Part shown: one piece after another, positions 32,824 through 34,877 of the stretch
How the letters are laid out: the number at the start of each line of letters is the position of its first letter
Numbering within the stretch: position 1 is the first letter of the stretch
Source: Phyllobacteriaceae bacterium
GTDB lineage: Bacteria; Pseudomonadota; Alphaproteobacteria; Rhizobiales; Rhizobiaceae
Direction of reading: 5' to 3'
Length of the DNA stretch: 34,877 nucleotides
Assembly: GCA_023954255.1 (NCBI GenBank)
Contig: JAMLIH010000030.1
Span: forward strand, 1-34,877
Notes under the pieces: generated by a model
Told to the model about the DNA's origin: nothing
The model's database searches: none
The model's input: the letters and a program-made list of their open reading frames with translations, nothing else
Translations under genes and position numbers: made by a program

Positions 32824-34416
32824 TCAGAGCGCCGATTTCATCAGCTTGTAGTTGATCGAATCGGTCAGCGCCTGGAAGGAGGCATCGATGATGTTATCCG
32901 ATACGCCGATGGTCGACCAGCGCTCGCCGCTGTCGTCGGTCGATTCGATCAGGACGCGGGTTACGGCTTCCGTACCGCCATTGAGAATGCGCACCTTGTA
33001 GTCGACCAGTTCAAGGTCGCCGATCTGGCCCTGATACTTGCCGAGATCCTTGCGAAGGGCCTGGTCGAGCGCGTTGACCGGGCCCTGGCCTTCGGAAACG
33101 GAAAGAAACATCTCGCCGTCGACCTCGACTTTCACCACCGCTTCCGAGACGGTGACGACATCGCCGCGGGCATTGAAACGGCGCTCGACCTGGGTGCGGA
33201 AGGATTCGACCCTGAAGAATTGCGGCACCGTGCCGAGATGGCGGCGCGCCAGCAGTTCGAAACTTGCTTCCGCCGCCTCATAGGCAAAGCCCTTGGCCTC
33301 TCGCTCCTTGACGATGGAAATCAGCGTATCGAGCGCCGGATTGTCCTTTTCGACCTCGATGCCCTTGCGCTTCAGTTCGGCGATGAAATTCGACTTGCCG
33401 CCCTGATCGGAAACCATCAGGCGGCGGCGGTTGCCGACGCTTTCGGGGGAGACGTGCTCATAGGTGTCGGGTGCCTTGACGATTGCCGAAGCATGGATGC
33501 CGGCCTTGGTGGCAAAGGCGGAAGAGCCCACATAGGGCGCCTGGTGATAGGGCGCCTGGTTGATCAGTTCGTCGAACTTGTGGGAAACCCGCGTCAGCGC
33601 CGCAAGCTGGCCGGGGGCGATGCCGATTTCGAACCGGCCGGCATAAACCGGCTTTAGGGCGAGCGTGGGAATGATCGTCGTCAGGTTGGCGTTGCCGCAG
33701 CGTTCGCCGATGCCATTGAGCGTTCCCTGCACCTGCCGGGCGCCCGCCTCCACGGCGGCAAGGGAATTGGCAACCGCCTGGCCGGTGTCGTCATGGGCGT
33801 GAATGCCGAGGTATTCGCCGGGAATGCCGGCCTCGATCACCGTATTGACGATCTGCGCCACTTCTGTTGGCTGGGCGCCTCCGTTGGTGTCGCACAGCAC
33901 GATCCATCTGGCGCCGGCCTCGTAGGCGGTCTTTGCACAGGCCAGCGCATAGCCGGGATTGGCCTTGTAGCCGTCGAAGAAATGCTCGCAGTCCACCATC
34001 GCCTCGCGGCCTGCGGCCACCGCAGCCTTGACCGAGCCGGCGATGGATTCGAGGTTTTCCTCGTTGGTGCAGCCCAGCGCCACCTCGACATGGTAGTCCC
34101 AGCTCTTGGCGACATAACAGATGGCGTCGCAATCGGCGGCGAGGAGACCGGCAAGGCCGGGATCATTGGAAACGGAAACGCCGGGGCGCTTGGTCATGCC
34201 GAAGCCGACAAAGGCTGCTTTCCTGGTGCGTTTCCTGGAGAAAAACTCGGTGTCTGTGGGGTTGGCGCCGGGATAGCCGCCTTCGACATAGTCGACGCCC
34301 AGTTCGTCGAGCATCGCGGCGATGTCGATCTTGTCGGCGACGGAAAAGTCGACGCCGGGCGTCTGCTGACCGTCGCGCAGGGTCGTGTCGAAGAGGTAGA
34401 TGCGTTCGAGAGTCAC
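32824..34416 (-). CDS. cimA: (R)-citramalate synthase
   Basis: Condenses pyruvate and acetyl-CoA to citramalate, the threonine-independent route to 2-oxobutyrate and isoleucine. The 530-residue protein has the HMGL-like TIM barrel with [17 protein letters not shown], metal-binding [19 protein letters not shown], and a C-terminal LeuA-type allosteric domain (about 400-530). The length and [13 protein letters not shown] favour CimA over 2-isopropylmalate synthase. The start is GTG at 34416 ([10 protein letters not shown]), with GGAG 8 nt upstream, in keeping with homologues. A GTG at 34425 is an alternative, whose GGGGAG ribosome binding site would come from the adjoining repeat. Confidence 0.92.
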
Positions 34417-34431
34417 TGTTTGCACTCCACT

Positions 34432-34478
34432 CTCCCCCCTTGCGGGGGAGATGTCACCGAAGGTGACAGAGGGGGGTT
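34432..34478 (+). repeat. Palindromic repeat, left copy, bracketing the DUF559 gene
   Basis: Two hairpins in a row: CTCCCCC (34432-34438) with GGGGGAG (34444-34450), then GTCACC (34453-34458) with GGTGAC (34462-34467) around GAA. They are followed by AGAGGGGGGT. The 16 bases from 34462 recur inverted at 34862-34877. Similar C/G-rich double hairpins are, as I recall, dispersed in rhizobial intergenic regions. It separates cimA from the DUF559 gene and lies where a cimA promoter might be expected. Confidence 0.85.
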
Positions 34479-34860
34479 ATTGATTAAATGCCTCTGAATC
34501 AATAGTCCCGACGACAGCAATGATGTGATCGCATACACCGTCAAGGTCTTTCATTACTTCGACATTCCAAAATCGCACCACCTGCCATCCGCTTTCACCC
34601 AGCTTTTCAGTGCGACGGGCATCATGTTTCAGGTTTGCCGGCTGGGCATGTGCCGAGCCATCAACTTCGATAACAAGTTTGTATTTTGGACAGGCAAAAT
34701 CCGCAATGTAGCGGCCGATGGGTAACTGCCGACGAAATCCAAGACCCGCCAAATGGTGAGCACGCAGCCGGCCCCACAGTTTCCGCTCTGCGGGCGTCAT
34801 CTCCCGGCGAAGACGAATTGCGTTTTCTCTCAACTGTTTTGGGGCCGGTGGATAAGGCAA
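34477..34860 (-). CDS. DUF559 (Vsr-like) endonuclease-domain protein
   Basis: A 127-residue protein with the DUF559 signature: MTPAERKLWGRLRAHHL, LGFRRQLPIGRYIADF, then KLVIEVDGSAH, giving the D...ExD pattern of a PD-(D/E)XK nuclease related to Vsr mismatch endonuclease. Its activity and target are unknown. The start appears to be TTG at 34860, since an in-frame TGA lies 15 bases upstream. GAGG 6 nt before it belongs to the right repeat copy. The TAA stop abuts the left copy. The gene is therefore bracketed tightly by inverted repeats, unlike its housekeeping neighbours. An internal ATG at 34800 would cut into the domain. Confidence 0.82.
   Translation of the reverse strand: MPYPPAPKQLRENAIRLRREMTPAERKLWGRLRAHHLAGLGFRRQLPIGRYIADFACPKYKLVIEVDGSAHAQPANLKHDARRTEKLGESGWQVVRFWNVEVMKDLDGVCDHIIAVVGTIDSEAFNQ
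34478..34504 (-). repeat. Hairpin at the 3' end of the DUF559 gene
   Basis: TATTGATT (34478-34485) pairs perfectly with AATCAATA (34497-34504) around 11 nt. It contains the stop codon and adjoins the palindromic repeat. It may end transcription or be part of a mobile-unit end. Confidence 0.5.
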
Positions 34861-34877
34861 TACCCCCCTCTGTCACC
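34861..34877 (-). repeat. Palindromic repeat, right copy (cut by window edge)
   Basis: On the minus strand this reads GGTGACAGAGGGGGGTA, identical over 16 bases to 34462-34477 but in opposite orientation, so both copies point toward the gene. Only the inner end is visible. It provides GAGG, a likely ribosome binding site for the DUF559 gene. Confidence 0.8.

Follow-up and report, generated by a model that had tools for sequence, protein, structure and literature searches.

The DNA analysed here (hereafter the window) is 34,877 nucleotides long and constitutes the entire contig C64 of a draft genome of 3.34 Mb in 139 contigs. Its last gene lies on the reverse strand at 34477–34860, has a TTG start and encodes 127 amino acid residues up to a TAA stop codon at 34477–34479. 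In a Pfam profile search this gene matched PF04480 (E 4.5e-38), the DUF559 family of Vsr/PD-(D/E)XK-like nucleases; among the NCBIfam models, the DUF559 model PRK09767, which we take to be the YcjD model, was matched below its cut-off and the vsr match was weak. A search of the window against Rfam at the gathering threshold gave no match, and PADLOC returned weak partial matches only.

The gene is packed between two inverted copies of a repeat, as an earlier note on this DNA had described: GGTGACAGAGGGGGGT is present at 34462–34477 on the forward strand and, inverted, at 34862–34877, and the window has no other exact inverted pair of 16 nt or longer whose copies lie within 1 kb. The stop codon does touch the left copy, with which it shares one base, and the TTG start is situated just inward of the right copy. 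The left repeat as a whole (about 34430–34477, forward strand) is, again as first described, a double hairpin, composed of hairpin 1 (34431–34451; pyrimidine arm TCTCCCCC, loop and purine arm GGGGGAGA), hairpin 2 (34452–34468; TGTCACC-GAA-GGTGACA, from the fold) and a G-rich foot, AGAGGGGGG(T) (34468–34477), which has base 34468 in common with hairpin 2 and points toward the gene. Folded as single-stranded DNA, this copy reaches −14.5 kcal/mol (z −4.1), and none of 200 shuffled sequences was as low. The foot segment AGAGGGGG mirrors the hairpin 1 purine arm GGGGGAGA exactly, as opposed to complementing it. The right repeat (34862–34877, reverse strand) is truncated by the contig end and seen only in part, since the window ends where the contig does; it comprises the last part of hairpin 2 and the foot. 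The hairpin 1–2 core GGGGGAGATGTC was found at three places in the same assembly, none of them a matching contig end. The right copy had also been suggested to supply the ribosome binding site, and its GAGG could indeed be a candidate for this gene, but the arrangement is not general, because repeat–gene distances vary in relatives.

A structure model of the window protein (mean pLDDT 85) matched 3HRL, which is from the gonococcus and is itself matched by the DUF559 profile (E 2.3e-37), and the domain of the homing endonuclease I-Bth0305I (E 6e-5), with a weaker match to E. coli Vsr (E 2.3e-3). The window protein contains E25, D54, E65, D67, H71, D80 and R83; in an alignment of 48 sequences E65 is conserved in at least 90% and the other six residues (E25, D54, D67, H71, D80 and R83) are invariant. 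These conserved residues presumably resemble the active site of the EDxHD nucleases, which we take to be the name of this nuclease group. The DUF559 protein thus has the fold of a nuclease and conserves acidic and histidine residues, two features that it shares with the Vsr-like/EDxHD nucleases (I-Bth0305I, E. coli Vsr, 3HRL); as a point of difference, the DUF559 gene is tied to a repeat family.

Repeats beside DUF559 genes

Four of the seven genomes of the window's genus carry DUF559, with six genes in all, and, by eye, each of the six adjoins C-rich/G-rich palindromes, which differ in sequence. A broad sample was then assembled by protein similarity (80 loci, the best 80 of at least 577 listed), of which the flank test used 76 and the both-sides palindrome count 75, the rest being dropped for flank length. 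When the 300-nt upstream and downstream flanks were matched in inverted orientation, with a threshold score of at least 20, this score was reached by 39 of the 76 loci (from the best 80 of at least 577 listed), compared with 3 of 429 shifted windows taken from these loci and 20 of 600 pairs that combined flanks of different loci. Pyrimidine–purine palindromes are concentrated in the four nearest 100-nt bins, with counts of 21 and 38 on one side of the gene and 38 and 20 on the other; the remaining bins of these loci, again from the best 80 of at least 577, hold 0 to 8, mostly 0 to 2.

The association extends over several phyla. An inverted score of at least 20 was obtained for 13 of the 25 loci with non-alphaproteobacterial or unclassified record titles, a set that includes Chloroflexi, Nitrospirae, Binataceae, Peribacteria and others. 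Some low scorers of this set, such as L060 and L089, have the layout by eye, and L049 hardly does. Eight named records were opened, and two reach the threshold, namely Sinorhizobium meliloti Ak57 (104) and Deinococcus proteolyticus (48.5). Picosynechococcus PCC 7002, Azospirillum brasilense, Neisseria gonorrhoeae and Sinorhizobium K101 score 9 to 16 and have, by eye, repeats on at least one side, and E. coli ycjD has only a repeat remnant directly beside it. No such palindromic repeat lies beside the DUF559 gene of a Parageobacillus plasmid (L240), possibly a different branch with another role; on this conjugative plasmid the gene stands directly behind a helix-turn-helix gene.

A second sample was drawn from the window's order, taken as Rhizobiales from our reading of the sequences. 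A pyrimidine–purine palindrome was present within 300 nt in 43 of 47 DUF559 loci, and on both sides in 26, in a set that is weighted toward high-scoring matches and multi-copy genomes (duplicates L152, L163 and L168 left out). Stand-alone GIY-YIG genes of the same order, used for comparison (29 of 30 loci, within L172–L201), had a pyrimidine–purine palindrome within 300 nt in 2 of 29 cases; they are a clean control for the DUF559-type palindrome only, because inverted flank repeats of other kinds (score at least 20) were found at 12 of the 29 (for instance L173, L179, L186, L187, L199 and L200). The repeat-flanked layout of the window is general for DUF559 genes. As a separate observation, L010 (from G002, in the window's genus) and L162 (from G187) have DUF559 genes with different repeats and, by eye, apparently the same neighbouring gene.

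Aligned relatives follow a common plan, in which hairpin 1, hairpin 2 and the foot precede the gene and the same elements follow it inverted. At L018, L048, L077, L078, L138 and S. meliloti Ak57, each side of the gene has a whole inverted pair with the feet outward, as in REPINs (L138 sits between apparent pheS and pheT, gene names being our reading of the sequences). Among 11 variants of the repeat class of the window (class A), 98.5% of the hairpin 2 cells pair and four of the six pairs change on both sides, with a covariation of 0.521 against 0.131 in shuffled alignments (reached by 0 of 500 shuffles); as the changes are compensatory, the shape of hairpin 2 is kept despite its varying sequence. 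More widely, 48 of 79 distinct spacers of at least 8 nt can form a stem of at least 5, compared with a shuffled mean of 1 in 79, and 27 of 123 elements have a spacer shorter than 8 nt and are therefore without hairpin 2. The commonest hairpin 2 loops are GCA, GAA and GTA, and GNA loops are very stable in DNA.

The mirror relation between foot and purine arm also recurs. A G-rich foot was found in 123 of 174 non-redundant elements, and in the 110 asymmetric ones the mirrored purine arm is a closer fit to the foot than the arm read directly in 66 cases and a poorer one in 10, with 34 ties; when one element per distinct arm is taken (35), the mirror wins by just 20 to 8. The mirror fit of arms to their own feet exceeded all 1000 shuffles, while the direct fit was reached by 38 of 1000, and the redundant set, on the gene side, gave 86 against 31 with 55 ties. 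In well-matched windows the bases of arm and foot face each other as G-G (176 cells), A-A (42), A-T (16) and other combinations (21), a table that is partly circular because these windows were picked for a mirror match of at least 75%. Judged from sequence, the facing code is that of an antiparallel purine third strand, and the purine foot could lie back along the first stem as such a strand.

Four repeat classes were distinguished by hairpin 1, and 105 of 132 loci could be classed. We noticed that the repeat class follows the protein clade: the nearest protein of less than 70% identity shares the repeat class in 84 of the 105 loci, against a mean of 29.7 and a maximum of 50 in 2000 permutations. 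With neighbours limited to less than 50% identity, agreement is at chance (35 of 105 against a permuted mean of 29.8). Four genomes hold paralogues with different repeat classes, and in such multi-class genomes the nearest foreign protein has the same class in 11 of 17 comparisons, as against 22 of 66 when a gene is compared with others within its genome (raw counts).

Dispersed copies and occupancy of sites

In a sample of 199 genomes of the order, exact patterns were counted for class A and for class B/C (class D repeats lie outside both), and DUF559 matches of E 1e-20 or better were called strong. DUF559 is present in 98 of these genomes, the class B/C pattern in 124 and the class A pattern in 10, nine of which carry DUF559 (the tenth, G221, has three class A copies). 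Three or more dispersed copies of class A plus B/C were found in 71 of the 82 genomes whose DUF559 match is strong, in 7 of the 16 with weak matches only and in 10 of the 101 with none, and the mean copy number is 42.8 with strong DUF559 against 1.3 without, counts that include the repeats beside the DUF559 genes themselves (a few per genome). The direction is the same in 14 of the 17 genera that contain both strong-hit and other genomes (p 0.013). There are exceptions: at least 5 copies were counted in 8 genomes that lack DUF559, and fewer than 3 in 11 that have a strong match. A distribution of the repeats independent of DUF559 would, according to the earlier note, have spoken against a joint unit; over the 199 genomes, copy number tracks DUF559. 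The draft genome of the window itself has only three class A and four class B/C matches, as would be expected either of a family with low copy number or of an assembly interrupted at repeats. At G000:C96:69274-69383 (L006) there is an inverted class A pair with feet inward, with no DUF559 seen beside it and a GIY-YIG gene about 2 kb away.

The 130-nt repeat pair of S. meliloti Ak57 gives a similar picture on a finer scale. It occurs at full length and at least 97% identity in only four plasmid-collection records, which carry it, at any length, at 39, 24, 22 and 25 places; these four are exactly the ones whose DUF559 is at least 89% identical to the DUF559 of Ak57. In all, 257 records gave matches to the repeat pair, and in the remaining 253 these were shorter or weaker. 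Some records of this collection (the sources of L236, L237 and L242) may be mislabelled, since their size or content is chromosomal: an E. coli record measures 4.8 Mb, one of N. gonorrhoeae 2.2 Mb, and the 'pSymB' record of S. meliloti Ak57 3.7 Mb, the last with a chromosome segregation SMC gene.

These data bear on two explanations in which DUF559 has no part in the repeats. The flanking palindromes might be terminators or regulators of a lone gene, with DUF559 merely located in intergenic hot spots for repeats; hairpins beside a short gene, and a right copy that may provide the ribosome binding site, would be in keeping with it. Nevertheless, small GIY-YIG genes of the same order mostly lack such palindromes (2/29), hairpin 2 varies with compensation, and the repeats are dispersed in numbers that track DUF559, so that we hold this explanation to be very improbable. 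Alternatively, the repeats could be ordinary REPs moved by Y1 (RAYT-type) transposases, on which DUF559 hitch-hikes, as their similar scale, extragenic position and inverted pairs of the REPIN kind might suggest. However, Y1 transposases were detected in 29 of the 199 genomes and are unrelated to repeat number (three or more copies in 13 of 29 genomes with Y1 and 75 of 170 without; odds ratio 1.03, p 1.0), no Y1 family match was found in the draft genome of the window or in the class A-rich genomes G128, G160, G187 and G253, and the foot is purine-rich instead of GTAG; we give this second explanation hardly any credence. The layout had been likened beforehand to that of RAYT units, with a Vsr-like nuclease in place of the Y1 enzyme, and the PF04480 match together with the lack of a Y1 match in this draft genome agrees with that description.

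Comparison of occupied and empty sites was possible between apparent glyQ and glyS in genus g61, probably Mesorhizobium (glyQ and glyS are our reading of the sequences), for which 30 loci were fetched from 41 matching genomes. Twelve loci have the unit (542–553 nt), four the right-hand repeat only (78–83 nt) and thirteen are empty (43–48 nt); one, L231, is truncated and was left out of the tree of the other 29. At one locus (L206) the DUF559 gene looks frameshifted. Filled, solo-repeat and empty states are scattered on the tree, with 10 changes, at least five of which are forced by supported branches. The DUF559 gene and the region next to it have diverged to the same degree (0.149 and 0.154, respectively; rho 0.72), and the gene therefore looks old at this site and not recently mobile. 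The unit between glyQ and glyS has the appearance of an old allele, subject to loss or exchange, whose decay can leave a repeat behind; comparison of its filled and empty alleles identified no target duplication. RAYT genes are inherited mainly by descent, and the same is seen for DUF559 at this one site. Beside this site, immediately ahead of glyS, the 5' end of glyS is duplicated in L205, L211, L212 and L202, with an inserted stretch that has a GCGCC-GAA/GGA-GGCGC-like hairpin, and L212 has a further tandem copy.

Other sites were less simple. In the window, cimA (32824–34425, reverse strand; the gene name is carried over from the earlier note) adjoins the left repeat and lies outside the unit. 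It was matched in 47 of 61 family genomes, and DUF559 lies within 1.5 kb upstream of it in 3 of the 30 loci fetched, the locus of the window among them. A filled/empty series was thereby ruled out in any simple form, because the DUF559–cimA distances differ among these three loci. The three (L092, L093 and L102) come from three genomes in two genera and differ in intervening sequence too; this hints at a recurrent neighbourhood. Sinorhizobium K101, compared with S. meliloti Ak57 as a possible clean excision, was rejected, as the deletion runs through half of the DUF559 gene, between short matches (CCGAT), and ends at hairpin 1. Of 5426 E. coli genomes, 3333 match a sapF–ycjD–fabI query over 80% or more of its length. 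The three short-match strains opened (L245, L246 and L247) have a pair of MFS and outer-membrane efflux genes after sapF and no ycjD; these sites are therefore replacements and were rejected as clean empty sites. In one further E. coli strain ycjD is annotated as incomplete. Empty sites, which the earlier note had suggested looking for, were thus found between glyQ and glyS, but cimA gave no simple series and no target duplication was identified.

The occupancy data are relevant to another explanation, in which DUF559 is a free-standing homing endonuclease gene that colonises repeats by cutting repeat-bearing or empty sites and being copied in by recombination, the repeats themselves having spread otherwise. 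The similarity of fold and profile to I-Bth0305I makes it a serious rival, as does the occurrence, at a single site within one genus, of alleles with the unit, with a repeat alone or with neither, scattered on the tree with at least five forced changes. Homing alone does not, however, produce a mean of 43 repeats with the gene against 1.3 without it, and in aligned loci the gene is flanked by whole inverted repeats and not by the halves of one site; we regard it as rather unlikely. What was first suggested as a mobilisable or repeat-maintaining unit of nuclease and repeat is well supported as a unit, by its flanks, class matching and co-occurrence; its mobility is at most putative, the glyQ–glyS gene looking old.

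A proposed partner for triplex-type repeats

One of the published triplex motifs is located, in E. coli K-12, 167 nt downstream of the DUF559 gene of this organism, ycjD; the chance that one of 23 motifs falls within 300 nt of a given gene is about 0.005. By map position, we assume that it is motif number 9. Its sequence is that of motif 9 in the parts of PMC4666352 available, shared with motifs 16, 19 and 22 of Table 1 there. According to the same parts of that paper, motifs with a pyrimidine arm, a purine arm, a loop and a purine third strand occur in more than 260 genomes, with 23 copies in E. coli MG1655; a triplex was demonstrated in vitro for the E. coli motif, no stable triplex was detected in cells by footprinting, no mobility-providing activity was found around the E. 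coli copies, and intrastrand triplex repeats are tied to local instability. These elements (TM/TMECO, earlier PIT) are arranged like the repeat described here, the pyrimidine arm being followed by a purine arm, a second loop and a purine third strand. The search in the available text of PMC4666352 allowed loops of 1–6 nt, whereas the second loop of the window is the 17-nt hairpin 2 and many other copies likewise have a hairpin there; and the triplex observed in vitro is that of the E. coli motif, a triplex in the two-hairpin form of the window being putative. A word-start search of the main text of PMC4666352 returned none of the words nuclease, endonuclease and DUF, and no link between DUF559 and such repeats appeared in the titles and abstract beginnings of the literature searched, mostly outside subscription journals. 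The triplex-type repeat is already known, and a DUF559 partner for it is apparently new.

The instability ascribed to such repeats in the available parts of PMC4666352, the Vsr-like fold, and a DUF559-domain Vsr-like protein of Caulobacter tied to DNA damage in the accessible portion of PMC12907096, all speak for another serious rival, namely that DUF559 is a host repair or guard nuclease resolving folded repeats of other origin, which would select for retention of the gene and accumulate near it. A guard nuclease would need neither flanking repeats of its own class nor paralogues matched to different classes, and we consider it unlikely.

The closest parallel is the REPtron, formed by a RAYT gene and GTAG REPs (PMC3733652). 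As far as the available text of that paper goes, it resembles the DUF559 unit in having a small solitary gene that adjoins a palindromic repeat or is enclosed by inverted copies of it, in the dispersal of this repeat in the genome, also as inverted pairs (for DUF559, in relatives, with few copies in the draft genome of the window), and in the existence of several repeat classes with matching proteins. It differs in that its enzyme is a Y1 HUH transposase and not a Vsr/PD-(D/E)XK-like DUF559 nuclease, and in that its repeat carries the GTAG tag, while DUF559 repeats have a mirror-symmetric, G-rich purine foot (AGAGGGGGG in the window) and often comprise two hairpins. The unit is not a member of the RAYT family, since a search for the Y1 enzyme and for the GTAG tag found neither.

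We think that the locus is probably a repeat-plus-nuclease unit, in which DUF559 serves as the nuclease that acts in trans on the dispersed repeats of its own class, and we propose, by analogy, that DUF559 nucleases may act on triplex repeats as RAYT transposases do on REPs. DUF559 would recognise its cognate repeat when the strand folds in single-stranded DNA, for example at a replication fork, and would nick or cut the folded repeat strand. Repair or recombination could then copy, spread or maintain the repeats and REPIN-like inverted pairs elsewhere, with the gene between two inverted repeats as the source copy, which beyond the glyQ–glyS site, too, would be inherited mainly by descent. To our knowledge, PD-(D/E)XK nucleases have no strand-joining chemistry, and spreading would therefore need host repair.

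The inverted flanks of the GIY-YIG genes may be a parallel case. Six of the twelve loci are clearly of the CGTC type (GTCATYC...GGATCCA) and the rest are related or different. CGTC-tagged REPs are, in the available text of PMC3733652, dispersed and mainly alphaproteobacterial palindromes that seem to be without a dedicated transposase; they differ in sequence from the DUF559 repeats and are found here beside some GIY-YIG genes and not beside DUF559. The CGTC-type pattern was detected in 54 of 101 genomes, and three or more copies occurred in 32 of 69 genomes with at least two GIY-YIG matches against 7 of 32 with fewer (p 0.027). A joint reading, in which DUF559 proteins would be the missing enzymes of triplex repeats, reading the folded single strand (hairpin plus third strand) and spreading the repeats by break and repair and not by transposition, and GIY-YIG proteins would be the same for CGTC REPs, is offered tentatively, as one that may well prove wrong; we lowered our confidence in it because only six of the twelve GIY-YIG loci are clearly CGTC. 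If true, REP-like repeats would be served by at least three unrelated folds (Y1, Vsr-like and GIY-YIG) with a convergent life style.

DUF559, a family of unknown function, would gain a role, and the REP–RAYT idea would extend to a nuclease without transposase chemistry. The question of the partner could be put to the test in E. coli K-12 or Mesorhizobium, using a single small protein and a single oligonucleotide. In the DUF559 family, a widespread class of bacterial repeat probably has its missing partner.
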